Assembly: GCF_000423505.1 (NCBI RefSeq) | Contig: NZ_AUIC01000004.1 | Span: forward strand, 310,001-374,000 | Reading direction: 5' to 3' | Source of the DNA: Pseudoclavibacter soli DSM 23366 | Lineage (GTDB): Bacteria > Actinomycetota > Actinomycetes > Actinomycetales > Microbacteriaceae | DNA: 64,000 bases | Part shown: positions 11,488 to 19,930 of the stretch, in pieces | How the letters are laid out: every line of letters begins with the position of its first letter | How positions within the stretch are numbered: position 1 is the stretch's first letter | The notes under the pieces: generated by a model | What the model was told of the DNA's origin: nothing | The model's input: the letters and a program-made list of their open reading frames with translations, nothing else | Database searches by the model: none | Translations under genes and position numbers: made by a program

Positions 11488-12494
11488 AGCCTTCGCTGAG
11501 AGCGCTGGCGCTCGTCGGCGCCATTGCTGCGCTGCTCGCCGTCTGCATACTCTCCGTGGCCGTCGGGTCACGAGAGGTGCCACTCGGCGATGTGGTGCAG
11601 GCGCTGCTCGACCCCGACCGGCATGACCTGGCCAGTGAGGCGGTGCGCCTGCGCGTACCGCGCACTGTGCTCGGCCTGCTGGTCGGGGCCGCGCTGGCAC
11701 TCTCCGGCGTGCTGATGCAGGGGCTGACCCGCAATCCACTGGCCGACCCGGGGCTGCTCGGCATCAGCTCCGGGGCAGCCTTCGCCATCGTGCTCGGCAT
11801 GGTGATTCTCACCATCGACTCACCGGCACAGTTCATCTGGTTCGCGCTCGTCGGCTCGGTCGCCACTGGTGTGATCGTGTGGCTGATCGGCACCCGAAAT
11901 GGTCGCATCGGCGATCCACTGCGCCTGGCTCTGGCCGGTGCGATCATCGCCTCCCTACTGTCTTCTGCCATTCAGGGGCTGCTGCTGCCTCGAGCGCAGA
12001 CGCTCTCACAGTTTCGCTATTGGATGGCCGGCGGCCTCGATGGCGCTCGCTTCGAGCAGATGCTACCGGTGCTGCCGTTCTTCGCCGTAGGCATGATCAT
12101 CGCACTGAGCAGCGGACGCACGTTGAACATGCTGGCGCTCGGCGACGATCTGGCTGCAGGTCTCGGGGGCAGCGTCAACCGCTCGCGCGCGATCGTGGCG
12201 ACCGGTGCGCTGGTGCTGGCTGCCGCATCCACCGCACTGGCCGGCCCGATTGGTTTCGTCGGCCTCGTGGTGCCACACGCGGTGCGAGCTGTGGTCGGGG
12301 TCAACCACAACCGGGTGCTCAGCTGGTCGCTGGTGGCAGGCCCCCTGCTGCTCGTCGGTTCTGATGTGCTCGGCCGCGTGATCACTCGCCCGGCCGACGT
12401 GCAGGTCGGCATCGTCACCGCAGTGATCGGCGCACCCGTGTTTATCGCCCTCGTGCTGCGCCAACGTCGCGCTGGAGGTCGTCATGACCACTGA
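11484..12494 (+). CDS. FecCD-family ferric siderophore permease (first subunit)
   Basis: 336 residues with about nine to ten hydrophobic helices. FecCD motifs are LRVPRTVLGLLVGAALALSG, MQGLTRNPLADPGLLGISSG, and the coupling segment ALGDDLAAGLGGSVNRSR, followed by GPIGFVGLVVPHAVR. It forms half of the membrane channel, pairing with the next gene. The GTG start at 11484 overlaps the stop of the lipoprotein gene, and its end overlaps the second permease by 11 bases. Confidence 0.92.
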   Translation: MKPSLRALALVGAIAALLAVCILSVAVGSREVPLGDVVQALLDPDRHDLASEAVRLRVPRTVLGLLVGAALALSGVLMQGLTRNPLADPGLLGISSGAAFAIVLGMVILTIDSPAQFIWFALVGSVATGVIVWLIGTRNGRIGDPLRLALAGAIIASLLSSAIQGLLLPRAQTLSQFRYWMAGGLDGARFEQMLPVLPFFAVGMIIALSSGRTLNMLALGDDLAAGLGGSVNRSRAIVATGALVLAAASTALAGPIGFVGLVVPHAVRAVVGVNHNRVLSWSLVAGPLLLVGSDVLGRVITRPADVQVGIVTAVIGAPVFIALVLRQRRAGGRHDH

Positions 12495-13521
12495 ACCACT
12501 GCATCTCGAAATCACTCACCGCGCGCTTGCACGGCGCCGCCGGGTGACCTGGACGATCATCGTGCTCGCGCTCGCTTTGGTGGCCCTCTATGTCGTGTCA
12601 TTGTGCGTGGGTGACCGAACCTACAGCATCGGTCAAGTGCTGCAGGTGATCGCCGGCCAGCAGGTGCCTGGGGCGAGCTTCACCGTCGGCGAGCTGCGTC
12701 TGCCGCGGGCGACTACTGCGGTGCTCACCGGGTTCGCCTTTGGCGTGGCCGGGGTGTGCTTTCAGACCCTGCTGCGCAACCAGCTGGCCAGCCCTGACAT
12801 CATCGGCATCACCGCCGGTGCCAACACGTCGGCTGTGGCAGGCATCATCGTCTTCGGTCTGAGCGGTCAGGTACTTTCGGCATTCTCGGTCGCGGGAGGC
12901 TTGATCACCGCCCTGCTCATCGCTGCGTTGGCCTGGGGTCGCGGCGGCGCCTCGGGCAGACTCATTCTGATCGGTATCGCCGTCAGCGCGATGTTCGACG
13001 CCGTCACCATGTGGCTGTTGGTCAACGCCAACCAGTGGGAGGTGCAGAACGCCTCGCGGTGGATGACCGGCAGTCTGAACAACGCCTCGTGGGAGACGCT
13101 TACTCCTCTGGCAATCGCTCTGCTGGTCACCGCGCCGACACTGGCCGTGCTCGCTTCGCGGCTGCAGACCCTGCGGTTGGGCGATGAGACTGCTGCCGCT
13201 CTCGGCATACATGTGATGCGCACTCGCATCAGCGTCATGGTGGTTGCGGTGCTGCTGCTCGCGCTGGCCACTGCTACCACCGGGCCGATCGCTTTCGTGT
13301 CGTTTCTGGCCGGCCCCATTGCCATGTGGATGCTCGGCCCCTCGCACTCACCGGTGTTCGCCTCGGGCTTGGTCGGTGCGGTGCTCGTGCTCGCGTCAGA
13401 CTTCATCGCAACGCATCTGCTGCCCCACACCTATCCCGTCGGAGTGGTGACCGGCGCACTCGGCGGCGTGCTGCTGATCGTGCTGCTGATCCGCTCGAAT
13501 CGCAAGGAGACTCACGAATGA
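12484..13521 (+). CDS. FecCD-family ferric siderophore permease (second subunit)
   Basis: 345 residues, the second BtuC-fold subunit. Motifs are LRLPRATTAVLTGFAFGVAG, LLRNQLASPDIIGITAG, the coupling helix RLGDETAAALGIHVMRTR and TGPIAFVSFLAGPIA. The starting ATG lies inside the end of the first permease gene, so the two are made in step. The gene ends with an ATGA overlap with the ATPase gene. Confidence 0.92.
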   Translation: MTTEPLHLEITHRALARRRRVTWTIIVLALALVALYVVSLCVGDRTYSIGQVLQVIAGQQVPGASFTVGELRLPRATTAVLTGFAFGVAGVCFQTLLRNQLASPDIIGITAGANTSAVAGIIVFGLSGQVLSAFSVAGGLITALLIAALAWGRGGASGRLILIGIAVSAMFDAVTMWLLVNANQWEVQNASRWMTGSLNNASWETLTPLAIALLVTAPTLAVLASRLQTLRLGDETAAALGIHVMRTRISVMVVAVLLLALATATTGPIAFVSFLAGPIAMWMLGPSHSPVFASGLVGAVLVLASDFIATHLLPHTYPVGVVTGALGGVLLIVLLIRSNRKETHE

Positions 13522-14321
13522 CCGGCTCTGATCACCAGCTCTCGGCTCAGCGGCTCGGGGTGAGCTATGGCGACCACCAAGTGATCTCCGAGCTCGACCT
13601 CGTAGTGCCTGATCATCAGGTGGGTGCGATCATCGGCCCCAACGGCTGCGGCAAGTCCACGCTACTGCGCACGCTGGCCCGCCTGGTTCGCCCGAGTGCC
13701 GGCCAGGTGGTACTCGACGGTCAGGCCATCCACCAGATGCCCACCAGAGAGGTCGCCCGCACATTGGGGCTGCTCCCCCAGTCTCCACTGGCACCCGAGG
13801 GCATCCTGGTCGAAGATCTGGTGAGCCGCGGGCGCGCACCACACCGTTCGGCGTTCACACCGTGGCGCACCGAAGATCATGCGGCCGTGGCCGAGGCTCT
13901 GGAGCTGACGCACACGGCAGAACTCGCCGAACGTGCCGTTGATCAGCTCTCGGGCGGTCAGCGGCAGCGCGTCTGGATTGCCATGGCTCTGGCACAGAAT
14001 ACCGATCTGCTGCTGCTGGACGAGCCGACGACGTATCTCGACCTGCATCACCAAATCGAGGTGCTCGACCTGCTGACCGACCTGAATCGCACGCGCGGCA
14101 CCACCATCGTGATGGTGCTGCACGACATCAACTTGGCCAGCCGCTACGCCGACTGGCTGGCTGCGATGAACGACGGCGCGCTGATCGCCCAGGGCACCCC
14201 CGGCGACGTGGTGAGCGAACAGCTCATGCACGACGTGTTCGACCTGCCTGCCCAAGTGATCAGCGACCCGGTGAGCGAGACCCCGCTGGTCGTGCCGATC
14301 GGCAGGCACCTGCGCCGCTGA
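13518..14321 (+). CDS. Ferric siderophore ABC transporter ATP-binding protein
   Basis: 267-residue cytoplasmic ATPase of the FepC/FhuC type. Walker A GPNGCGKST is near residues 40-48, the signature LSGGQRQRVWIAMALAQ near 142-158, Walker B LLLLDEPTTYLD follows, and the switch histidine is in VLHDINLASRYAD. The ATG at 13518 overlaps the permease stop and has AAGGAG upstream. It powers uptake by the preceding three subunits. Confidence 0.93.
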   Translation: MTGSDHQLSAQRLGVSYGDHQVISELDLVVPDHQVGAIIGPNGCGKSTLLRTLARLVRPSAGQVVLDGQAIHQMPTREVARTLGLLPQSPLAPEGILVEDLVSRGRAPHRSAFTPWRTEDHAAVAEALELTHTAELAERAVDQLSGGQRQRVWIAMALAQNTDLLLLDEPTTYLDLHHQIEVLDLLTDLNRTRGTTIVMVLHDINLASRYADWLAAMNDGALIAQGTPGDVVSEQLMHDVFDLPAQVISDPVSETPLVVPIGRHLRR

Positions 14322-14354: not shown

Positions 14355-15341
14355 ATGAGCACCCCCGACACCACTGCCCTGCCCGATGACTCTGCGATTG
14401 CGATCGGTATCGGCGGTTTTCGACCGTACCGCCTCACGGTGGCTCGCAACGAGCGTCTGACACCTCACTTCACCCGGCTCACCTTGACCGGCCCTGACTT
14501 GGTCGTGTTCGGCACCGATCGACTCGACCAGCGCATCAAGCTCGTTCTGCAGCTACCTGACGGCCGCTGGCACGATCTGGGGCTCGACGATCCCGAGGCC
14601 ATTCACACCGGCGCCTGGTACGAACGCTGGCGGGCCCTTGAGCCCGACCAGCAGCACCCGATTCGCACCTATACCGTGCGCAGCATCTACCCAGCGGCCA
14701 GAGAGCTCGTGGTCGATGTGGTCCTGCACGAGCCGGCCGGTCCGGCCGGACGTTTCGGCGCTGAAGCGCAGCCGGGTGACGAGATCATTGTGGTGGGCCC
14801 TGACGCCCGCTCAGAGCATTCCGCCATCGGCATAGACTTTCACCGTGGCACGGCTCGCGACCTACTGCTGGCTGGCGATGAGACCGCAGCCCCGGCGATC
14901 TGCGCCATCCTCGAACAGCTCGCCGAGATCGGCGGCCAATGGCGCATCCATGCCTTCGTCGAGGTGCCGACCAGCGCTGATGCCCTCACCGTTGACGCCC
15001 CAGCCGGCACCGCGCTGCACTGGCTCCCCCGCGGCGACCGCGCCCACGGCGAAGCGCTCATCGAGGCGGTGACCGCCTTCACTGCGGCCGACTCGGAGTT
15101 TGTGGCACTCGGTGCACTGCCAGCAGAGCGCGAGCCGCAGCAGCTTGAAGACGTCGACATCGACCACGACCTGTTGTGGGAGGCGCCTGAGCAGGTCGTC
15201 GGCGGAGCGTTCTACGCCTGGATCGCCGGCGAGTCGGGTGTGGTCAAGCAGTTGCGTAGACACCTCGTGCGCGACCACGGGGTCGATCGCGGTCGCGTCG
15301 CCTTCATGGGGTACTGGCGGCAGGGTCGCGCCGAGAACTGA
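14355..15341 (+). CDS. Siderophore-interacting protein (ferric-siderophore reductase, SIP/ViuB type)
   Basis: A 328-residue flavoprotein expected to reduce imported ferric siderophore and release Fe(II). The FAD-binding motif RTYTVR lies near residue 100 (after HPI), the NAD(P)H-binding segment LLAGDETAAPAICAILEQL near 175-193, and the C-terminal WIAGESGVVKQLRRHL and the MGYWRQGRAEN ending are typical of the family. A 33-base gap from the ATPase gene suggests the same operon. Its last 38 bases overlap the convergent gene. Confidence 0.9.
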   Translation: MSTPDTTALPDDSAIAIGIGGFRPYRLTVARNERLTPHFTRLTLTGPDLVVFGTDRLDQRIKLVLQLPDGRWHDLGLDDPEAIHTGAWYERWRALEPDQQHPIRTYTVRSIYPAARELVVDVVLHEPAGPAGRFGAEAQPGDEIIVVGPDARSEHSAIGIDFHRGTARDLLLAGDETAAPAICAILEQLAEIGGQWRIHAFVEVPTSADALTVDAPAGTALHWLPRGDRAHGEALIEAVTAFTAADSEFVALGALPAEREPQQLEDVDIDHDLLWEAPEQVVGGAFYAWIAGESGVVKQLRRHLVRDHGVDRGRVAFMGYWRQGRAEN

Positions 15342-16245
15342 GCCGCGCCACCTCGATCGTCTGCAGCAACCGGCGCCGCAGCACATCGGCTCGCGCGGCG
15401 AACTCGCGCTGCCGACTGGCAAACTCGTGACGCCCGGCCGCCGTCTCGATGGGCACCGCCGGCAGGCCGAAATCACTCACGTCATATGGCGACGCCTGCA
15501 TATCGAGGGTGCGAATCTCACGCGCAAGCTCGAAGGTGTCGAGCAGCAGTTCGCCGGGCACCAGCGGCCCGAGCTTGACCGCCCACTTGTACAGATCCAT
15601 GTTCGCGTGCAGACACCCCGACTGCTCGAGATCGACCTGCGTGGCACGCTCCGGCTGCAGAGTATTCAGCGGTCTGGCTTCTGGGGTGAAGAATCGAAAC
15701 GCGTCAAAATGCGAGCAGATGATGGTGCCCTGTTCAACGACTTCGTTGGTGCCGCGCTGGCCCAATCGCAGGGGCAGCTGGGTATGCCGCTGCTCACCTT
15801 CGTGCATGTCATAGACCATAGCCCATTCGTGCAGGCAGTTGCAGCCGATCCGCGCCGGCCGCTCAAGCGTGCGGCGAAGCAGCGTCTCGATGAATCCCAC
15901 CGCTGAGGCACGGGCGTCGAGAAACGCCGCAGCATCGACGCGCACATCGGTGGATGCCCGGTCTGGGCCTGCGGCCCAACCCGCGTACCAGCGCCAGGCG
16001 GCGCGGGGCTCGGCCGCGGCATCCTGAAGAATCACGCCCGCACCCGGATGCCAGCGTCGCAGCAGGCTCGGACGATACGAGTAATACGTGAACAGAAAGT
16101 CTTCGATCTCATCAGACTCGCCTGTGGCGCGGCGAGCGCGCCACCCTGCGGTCAGAGCATCGGCCCGTTGCTGATGAGCCGCCTCGCGCGCCTGCCACTG
16201 CTGTCGTGCGAGCACAATGGGCTGAGGTTGCTGGTCGAGGGGCAT
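15304..16245 (-). CDS. Conserved actinobacterial protein, often annotated as 3-methyladenine DNA glycosylase
   Basis: A 313-residue soluble protein. Conserved-looking blocks are DFLFTYYSYRPSLLRRWHPG (about 48-67), NCLHEWAMVYDM (about 136-147) and HANMDLYKWAVKLGPLVPGE (about 212-231). I recall this family from actinobacteria, where it is annotated as a 3-methyladenine DNA glycosylase, but I see no helix-hairpin-helix or other glycosylase motif, so the activity is unproven. The ATG at 16245 is chosen for a TACAGT -10 box 7 bases upstream and a GGAGG site. The 3' end overlaps the siderophore reductase gene. Confidence 0.6.
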   Translation of the reverse strand: MPLDQQPQPIVLARQQWQAREAAHQQRADALTAGWRARRATGESDEIEDFLFTYYSYRPSLLRRWHPGAGVILQDAAAEPRAAWRWYAGWAAGPDRASTDVRVDAAAFLDARASAVGFIETLLRRTLERPARIGCNCLHEWAMVYDMHEGEQRHTQLPLRLGQRGTNEVVEQGTIICSHFDAFRFFTPEARPLNTLQPERATQVDLEQSGCLHANMDLYKWAVKLGPLVPGELLLDTFELAREIRTLDMQASPYDVSDFGLPAVPIETAAGRHEFASRQREFAARADVLRRRLLQTIEVARLSSRRDPAASTP

Positions 16246-16679
16246 GCCCTCCACTGTAACGAGATCAGGCATGCGCACGCGACACGCACAGTTTGAGGTT
16301 TGCGCCCGAATGTCCTAAAGTGAGATGTCGGTTCGAGGCACAGCCTCGGATCGAAACCCTTGGGGTATGGTGTAATTGGCAACACAACGGTTTCTGGTAC
16401 CGTCATTCTTGGTTCGAGTCCAGGTACCCCAGCACTAGCAGGCGACTTCTCTTCATTTCGAAGACTCCTACTCATTCAAATCTCGTCGCTTCAGCAGATC
16501 TTGCCTGACCAACTGCCTTGAGCACACAGATGTCGTGAGGTGTCGTTCTCCGTCTCGCTGAACCGCATTTGGTGACACTTCGTGCACCTTCTCCATTCAC
16601 AAGGTGCCCGCAGGATGCCCCGATTAGACTTGCAGCATCGCGTCATGTCCTGATCGTGAAGGGTTGGGTCTGAGAGGAG
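16246..16679. other. 434-base stretch without protein gene; holds tRNA-Gln
   Basis: Apart from tRNA-Gln (16361-16432) and the TACAGT -10 box of the minus-strand neighbour at 16253-16258, I see only a GAGAGGAG ribosome site at 16672-16679 before the TPM pseudogene. No strong terminator follows the tRNA. Confidence 0.5.
16361..16432 (+). tRNA. tRNA-Gln (anticodon CTG)
   Basis: 72-nt cloverleaf: acceptor TGGGGTA pairs with TACCCCA plus discriminator G, the D-arm is GTGT/ACAC, the anticodon arm ACGGT-TTCTGGT-ACCGT has CTG, and the T-arm is CTTGG-TTCGAGT-CCAGG. No CCA is encoded. Confidence 0.95.
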
Positions 16680-17954: not shown

Positions 17955-18098
17955 GCACTCTCCTCTGCCGCCGAGGGCATTATGCCGGGCAGCAGTGTGC
18001 TCAGCCGCGAAAGTTCACGACCCTCACTCTGAACGATAGTCTGCGCTGGCTGCGCCGCACGCTCACTCGACTCGCTGCAGCCAGTCGTACGGGGTCGC

Positions 18099-18530
18099 CT
18101 AGTACATGCCGAGATCAAGCCAGTTGGCGAACAACAGCTGCGAATGCGCTCGCCAGGTGATCTCGACGTCGCTCACATCGGTGCCGGTATAGCGCGAGTG
18201 CGGCGCGCGAAAGTGGTCATCGAACCCGCGCACCAAGGGGTTCGAACGATCGTCGATGGTGCGGTAAAACCGGTCGAGGTTGTCTTTCGACACATTGCGA
18301 GACCCGTGCGACGCCGTCTGCAGAAACTCGACGTCGAGCTGCAACGGAGTGTTGCCCAGCAGCCGAAGCAAATGCACCTCGGTCGCGTGTTTGAGAGGCA
18401 TGAGGTTCAGCATCAGCAGGCGCAGCGCACGAATGTCCTGCCGAAGCGCACGATCGCGACCGATCACAAAGATGTTCTCGGCAGACAGTTCATCAATCGC
18501 GGGCAGCCCCGCCGGCACGCGGATCGGCAT
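18099..18530 (-). pseudogene. metA: Homoserine O-succinyl/acetyltransferase MetA remnant with two in-frame deletions
   Basis: The 143-residue frame is less than half the usual ~300. It starts as MetA (ENIFVIGRDRALRQDIR, LNLMPLKHATEVHLLRLLGN) up to LDRFYRT, jumps to a later block (NPLVRGFDDHFRAPHSRY), then to the C-terminus (TWRAHSQLLFANWL). By family alignment from memory, the first gap removes roughly residues 97-177 with the catalytic cysteine, and the second removes roughly 207-274 with the catalytic His/Glu. The reading frame, ATG and GAGGAGGAAG ribosome site are intact, but first-step methionine synthesis activity is not expected. Confidence 0.85.
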
Positions 18531-18553
18531 ATGTCTTCCTCCTCAGACCGTGA

Positions 18554-18603: not shown

Positions 18604-18885
18604 TCAGTCAGTCACAGCACGGTCGAGCGCCTGCGCCAAGTCGGCGATCAGGTCGTCGGGATCTTCGATGCCAACCGAGAGACGAATTGTCTCGGGGCCG
18701 AAGCCGGCCGTCCGCTGCTCGTCTGCGGTGTGCTGCTGGTGTGTGGTGGAGGCGGGGTGAATGACCAGCGATTTCGCGTCGGCCACATTCGCCAACAGCG
18801 AGAAGATCTCGAGGCTCTGCAAGAACAACCAGGCATTGAACGGCGAGAGGGATGCACCAGTGTCGCGCAACAGCCCCGCGCGCGG
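18604..18885 (-). pseudogene. metY: O-acetylhomoserine sulfhydrylase MetY remnant, C-terminal, internally deleted
   Basis: Only the C-terminal region remains: [20 protein letters not shown] runs straight into [19 protein letters not shown], skipping about 85 residues that lie between these blocks in complete enzymes, then [17 protein letters not shown] and [16 protein letters not shown] to the stop. The N-terminal two thirds, including the PLP lysine, is gone; the upstream boundary is set against the next gene's stop at 18896. It cannot make homocysteine. Confidence 0.85.
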
Positions 18886-18895
18886 GATGCCATGC

Positions 18896-19930
18896 TCACC
18901 CCGCGACGGCCAGCCCTGCCGACTCGGGTGCCTGTAGCGCCTGCAGCACGAGACGGCGACAGCGGTCGAACACCTGTGCGTTGCGATCGGCGATCTGACC
19001 GACATAATGGCGAGCGGCGAGCTTCAGGTTGAGCGCCTGGCGACGAGTGACCCAGCGACTCTGGATGCGCTGCACCGGCAGCGTACGCAGATAGTGTGCG
19101 CCAACGAGGCCCGGCCACGACACCGTGCGCCGTGCCGAGCGACGCGGGTCGGTGCGCATGGCTCTGGAGTTCTGCAGGTCTTCAATGCCATCGAGCATCA
19201 CGATGCGGCGGCGGTCATACCGTTCCACACTCTGCCAGGCATGCGAGGCCTTGATCTGCACGCCGATCGCCTGACGTGCGGCGGTGTCGATCACCAGCAT
19301 GTCGGCATTGGCCTCACCCGCGAACCGCTCGAACTGGGGCGGTGCCGGCAGCACCAACACATGGGCGTCACTGCGCGTGGCCTCTAACAAAGCGATGCAC
19401 GCGTCGATCTCGGTGAGCATGCCGGTGTGCCAGGCCCGAAAGCGATGCTGCTCCTCGTCTTCTCCGGCGATATCGCCCAGCGTCATCTCACGCACCTGGG
19501 CAAACAGCATGACGTCGGTGGAGAGCTCGAATCGCGCCTGATCGACCAGCGCACGCAGAGCCGCCTGATCGAGGTCGCCATAGAAGAGCTGGCGCCACAG
19601 CCCCAGGCTGCGCGTGTTCAGTCGATGAAAGCTGAACGCGGTCAGATCGTGCAGCATCGCGTCATCAGCCTCGTCATCACCATGCGCGTCAGACGCAGCG
19701 AGCAGCTCGGCAGACACCCGTTGATACCACTGCAGATACGTGACGCAGTGAGTGGCGAATTCTTCGGGTTGTGGGGCGATGCCGTCGCGCATCCAATCGT
19801 GCAGCAGCCTGCCCCACACCATGCCCTGCTGTTCGGCCTCAGCAGCCAGTGCACTGGTGAATCCGGTACTGAGGCGCTCGTGCTCGGGGCAGTCGCGCTG
19901 ATACCTCGCGACGTAACGGCTGATCTCCAT
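18896..19930 (-). CDS. Unrecognised protein with possible PD-(D/E)xK-like nuclease motif
   Basis: A 344-residue protein I do not recognise. It starts at an ATG with a strong GAGGAGG ribosome site. Residues 1-185 are mostly helical and rich in Glu, Asp and Trp. Residues 190-230 alternate hydrophobic strands with acidic residues: HVLVLPAP, then [18 protein letters not shown], then AIGVQIKAS. The order E201/E206, D210, D215, Q225-x-K227 resembles the core of restriction-endonuclease-like folds with a QxK variant. The last 110 residues are basic (many Arg). No defence partner genes flank it. It is divergent from a small operon, across a spacer with a dyad operator, and directly abuts the metY remnant. 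Confidence 0.5.

Follow-up and report, generated by a model that had tools for sequence, protein, structure and literature searches.

What survives between a membrane protein gene and an intact open reading frame in Pseudoclavibacter soli DSM 23366 is very probably an ordinary metY-metA operon that died fairly recently and that was spare beside an intact MetX. In the intact pathway, MetA would acylate homoserine and MetY would add sulfide, giving homocysteine, and the relic is most likely what remains of a spare pathway displaced by MetX. Coordinates refer to the window, the whole stretch of 64,000 nucleotides of this genome (G000) that was analysed. Its congeners are G001, G002 and G003, making four genus genomes, and comparisons across species used one genome per species.

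The metA relic is a frame of 143 amino acids (18099-18530, minus strand) that matches PF04204 with an E value of 3.6e-39 in the profile search. Its homology to MetA is above chance, as block 1 alone scores 100.9 bits and reaches 140.3 bits together with the neighbouring blocks. Like MetA (PF04204; NF047918 MetA_acetyl and TIGR01001 MetA_succinyl), the relic has three family blocks in the right order and, as the initial annotation had proposed, they were joined from separate parts of the protein: in the genome profile search they cover positions 1-93, 173-201 and 271-298 of the 298 in PF04204, so the relic falls short of the complete domain by which a working MetA was recognised. Measured against the G002 gene, the two gaps are 243 nt and about 210 nt long (213 nt for the second when its breakpoint is placed differently); both are multiples of three, in agreement with the earlier description of two in-frame deletions. 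Unlike the family, the relic is without half the protein and without the conserved Cys, His and Glu, and it carries a nonsense codon near its end. Alignment with 33 MetA sequences shows that 21 near-invariant columns (at least 97%) are missing, including C142, H235 and E237, all of which fall inside the gaps. We take Cys142, His235 and Glu237 to be the catalytic residues of MetA; on that assumption, this alignment to full MetA sequences bears out the expectation that the regions of the catalytic Cys and the His/Glu pair were dropped.

The frame was also said to keep its ribosome site, start and stop. The AGGAGG site and the ATG are indeed in place, but the stop is not the native one. The TAG that ends the frame occupies the position of the Gln in ..VYQ.TP., a residue shared by nearly all MetA, and the frame past it reads ATPYDWLQRVE followed by TGA (18063-18065), resembling the C-terminus of G002 MetA. 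Since the sequence past the TAG aligns with the end of intact MetA, the TAG is a nonsense codon within the C-terminus. With its clear homology, the loss of essential parts and the premature stop, the metA relic is very probably a pseudogene. It is also the only MetA match in a profile search of the whole genome, which found no intact metA elsewhere; of the two genes whose search had been advised, only metX is present intact. The features of the site are collected in Table 1.

Table 1. Features of the decayed metY-metA operon and its upstream neighbour (window positions).
Feature	Position	Strand	Basis or remark
Remnant of the original MetA C-terminus (ATPYDWLQRVE), with TGA at its native position	18063-18098	-	Alignment with G002
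TAG nonsense codon replacing a near-invariant Gln	18099-18101	-	Alignment with MetA
metA relic block 3: MetA from about residue 274, ending just before the nonsense codon	18102-18158	-	
metA relic block 2: G002 MetA residues about 175-203	18159-18251	-	Profile match, alignment
metA relic first junction, upstream end of block 2	18246-18251	-	Alignment with G002
metA relic block 1: initiation codon plus MetA residues 1-93	18252-18530	-	Profile match, alignment
metA relic start codon ATG	18528-18530	-	Read in sequence
AGGAGG ribosome site of metA relic	18538-18543	-	Read in sequence
metY relic: residues 265-286 fused to 361-430 of MetY, with its native stop	18604-18882	-	Profile match, alignment
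metY scrap, 15 bases, EHGIP codons (residues 178-182)	18883-18897	-	14/15 bases as in G002
Intact ORF, 344 aa, without Pfam match	18896-19930	-	Stop codon overlaps metY scrap

Adjoining the metA relic upstream is a metY relic (18604-18897) that was absent from the initial annotation, and whose C-terminal pieces match MetY, the O-acetylhomoserine sulfhydrylase (PF01053, TIGR01326). Unlike the family, and in the residue numbering of G002 MetY, it has lost its start together with residues 1-177, and 183-264 and about 287-360 are also missing; the stretch 183-264 should presumably contain the PLP-binding lysine. In G002, metY and metA are intact, open and adjacent, 101 bases apart. With metY wrecked beside it, what remains of metA forms the downstream part of a metY-metA operon in decay. 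The intact ORF that follows upstream has relatives in all three congeners.

For the competing route, this genome has intact metX, metB and metE genes. MetX (422 aa) is full-length and scores above the cut-offs of NF047917 (490.9 vs 475) and NF001209 (451.3 vs 331); under TIGR01392 it obtains 409 bits for a cut-off of 500, which none of the 14 control genomes reaches either. MetB, a cystathionine gamma-synthase, exceeds the cut-off of NF005871 (598.4 vs 513), and MetE, with a PF01717 match at E 3.7e-141, is encoded within about 5 kb of metX. Within the genus, a strong MetX match is found in G000, G001 and G003 and an intact metA in G002; profile searches gave no MetX match in G002 and no MetA match in G001 or G003. 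The genes that flank metX in the three genomes adjoin each other in G002, with metX missing between them, and a lax tblastn search of a 19-kb stretch found no metX remains at the corresponding place (best E 0.32). The site between these flanking genes lies at about 15235-15393 of G002:C1:436000-455000. The best NCBIfam model for G002 MetA is MetA_acetyl (NF047918), with a score below cut-off, and the protein has Glu at position 111, which we assume to mark acetyl transfer; together these features fit a MetY partner that uses O-acetylhomoserine.

In the family as a whole, MetX is usual and MetA is rare. Of 150 genomes, 144 gave a MetX match and 142 of these exceeded the cut-off; MetA was matched in four of 398, namely G000 (the relic), G002, G091 and G269; the smaller set is inferred to lie within the larger. 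No MetX match was found in the family genomes with intact MetA, G002, G091 (83% complete) and G269 (91% complete), nor any above cut-off in G045, G050 and G055, which belong to other families and have intact MetA, G050 giving three weak partial matches. The absence is less certain for G091 and G269 in view of their completeness. All the intact-MetA genomes tested, at least five with three of them in the family, are without MetX above cut-off. Among the 150 genomes, intact MetA occurs in two of the six without a MetX match vs none of the 144 that have a match (p 0.0013 by Fisher's test, without correction for kinship).

These observations suggest the following course. An intact metY-metA pair, as in G002, would have acylated homoserine through MetA and made homocysteine with sulfide through MetY, in a genome that would also have had the family-usual MetX (homoserine O-acetyltransferase), MetB and the methionine synthase MetE. 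Redundancy with MetX probably let the second route be lost. Decay would have involved large deletions in both metY and metA, loss of the metY start and a nonsense codon in metA; some of the deletions may have arisen between short repeats, and the metA frame probably stayed open by chance, perhaps aided by a bias of such repeats in codon phase.

The surviving blocks bear few marks of decay by substitution. Their pN/pS against G002 is 0.23 for metA and 0.12 for metY, and 0.22-0.40 for the four control genes that the codon comparison covered (metE, metF, SDR and cysK, with neither metB nor the upstream neighbour among them). The terminal branch of the relic in the MetA tree is longer (0.38 vs 0.067), and the relic has the larger number of private changes with each of the eight outgroups, a difference that is significant with one of them. 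Of the 38 near-invariant columns, three are altered in the relic (the TAG accounts for one of them) and none in G002; two rows among the 33 intact MetA sequences likewise deviate at three. Since pN/pS is not raised and the relative-rate counts are mostly non-significant, decay by substitution is barely visible, and the pattern in the blocks implies that most of the divergence predates the death of the gene, which would be recent relative to the split from G002. Values like those of inherited genes are as expected for a recent death. The suggestion that the deletions may be recent is thus upheld, as they appear fairly recent from the G002 comparison and from pN/pS.

How the operon came to be here is a separate question, and a different history for the same pseudogene is plausible, though somewhat less likely than not: metY-metA may have arrived separately from the G002 copy and died before replacing metX, rather than being ancestral to the genus. 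The chromosomal place differs, since in G002 the relative of the upstream neighbour is on contig 4 and metY-metA on contig 10. The relic blocks also differ from G002 at 105 of 187 synonymous sites, vs 589 of 1313 in the four control genes (p 0.005 by Fisher's test if sites are treated as independent), and in four of five proteins G000 is nearer, by small margins, to G001 and G003, both without a MetA match, than to G002. However, the relic and G002 MetA, its nearest relative, are sisters in the tree with support 100/99; amino-acid identities to G002 (0.79 for metA and 0.88 for metY) are near the 0.70-0.86 of the control genes; and relocation, together with loss in G001 and G003, fits equally well. 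A search for metY-metA remains near the relative of the upstream neighbour in G001, G002 and G003 gave one match only (E 0.39). When window ORFs of at least 120 aa between 9 and 27 kb were compared with these stretches for shared synteny, only the upstream neighbour and ORFs overlapping it had matches there at E 1e-15, and therefore the congener stretches offer no clean empty site.

Whichever way the operon arrived, all four internal gaps, two in metA and two in metY, keep the codon phase (for the first metY gap this depends on the 15-base scrap), which by blind chance would occur once in 81, and there is no frameshift within the surviving blocks of either gene. In-phase deletions, together with a good ribosome site, an open frame and a metA block pN/pS like that of working genes, are what would be seen if selection had retained a shortened MetA as a small protein in a new function, such as a binding or regulatory N-terminal piece. 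The initial annotation had raised such selection, regarding two in-frame deletions as unusual for a simple pseudogene. That expectation is weakened for GC-rich genes such as those examined here, where repeats have a bias in codon phase. In the six genes tested (metA and metY of G002; metE, metX, metF and metB of G000; GC3 0.77-0.96), repeats 150-350 nt apart, with overlapping words counted separately, fall in the same codon phase in 5559/9996 cases for 4-base words, 706/1035 for 6-base words, 265/359 for 7-base words and 95/117 for 8-base words. Under these measured odds, the probability that four of four gaps are in phase rises to 0.10 to 0.43. At the junctions themselves, matches between breakpoints were scored in the G002 sequence over 10 bases. 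The second metY gap has 8/10 matching bases (0.9% of all position pairs, and 2.1% of those in phase, match at least as well), and the first metA gap 7/10 (3.9% of all pairs, 8% of in-phase pairs); the second metA gap (5/10) and the first metY gap (3/10) are ordinary. Deletion between repeats is thereby suggested at one or two of the four junctions, and a role of the codon-phase bias in keeping this frame open is plausible.

Other observations speak against a retained short product. As metY is without its start, its own in-phase gaps are hard to ascribe to selection for a product, unless the start was lost last. The nonsense codon with leftover C-terminus beyond it, the dead partner gene and the intact MetX make a kept short product unlikely, and there is no second shortened MetA among the 398 family genomes, in which the other three matches cover 1-298. 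On this evidence we consider selection for a short MetA highly improbable. Even less credible is an assembly artefact hiding an intact metY-metA in the cell, as the four gaps, the nonsense codon and the 5' loss of metY would all need to be artefacts, the site is inside a 456-kb contig, and the breakpoint matches in the G002 sequence amount to at most 8/10 bases, too short to collapse an assembly.

The recent death of a redundant operon thus agrees best with the data, and it can be set beside two known situations. That MetX and MetA can replace each other, although they are not homologous, was reportedly described by Bastard et al. 2017. The common point is that either enzyme activates homoserine; here the losing route is still a visible fossil in a genome with intact metX, and G002, with metA kept and metX absent, is the opposite outcome. 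The site most likely preserves a legible trace of one homoserine-activating enzyme giving way to another that is not homologous to it; no paper on this replacement in the present family was among the matches listed. With bacterial pseudogenes that have large internal deletions the operon shares a redundant gene, deletions, a nonsense codon and a dead operon partner; unlike the others, it has all four internal gaps in phase. It might be, and we offer this tentatively, that GC-rich codon composition, by placing repeats in phase, makes gene decay routinely leave clean short frames that mimic selected mini-proteins, of which this operon would be a clear example. The matches listed included no paper on whether deletions in GC-rich pseudogenes are biased in codon phase. 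Because repeats in GC-rich genes favour in-phase spacing, in-frame deletions within an open frame of a GC-rich genome do little to show that a short protein is under selection, and this caution is checkable across many genomes.

The surroundings of the site contain several further elements. In the window and in the G002 operon stretch, the Rfam matches above gathering scores were all tRNAs, with no riboswitch; one of them, a tRNA-Gln (CTG; 16361-16433, plus strand), lies about 1.6 kb from the relic. Downstream of the relic is an HPP-family membrane protein (PF04982; 17418-17954, minus strand), found only in G000 among the four genus genomes, and a TPM-domain protein (PF04536; 16664-17488, plus strand) shows a weak, below-cut-off PspA/IM30 match in its C-terminal part. 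Near the metX loci, two ORFs between metE and a metX-flanking gene in G002 (G002:C1:436000-455000, 12220-13673) resemble, on inspection by eye, type I-E Cas5 and Cas6 proteins, and an ORF upstream of metE in G000 (G000:C1:345000-364000, 1831-2985) likewise resembles an IS30-type transposase.
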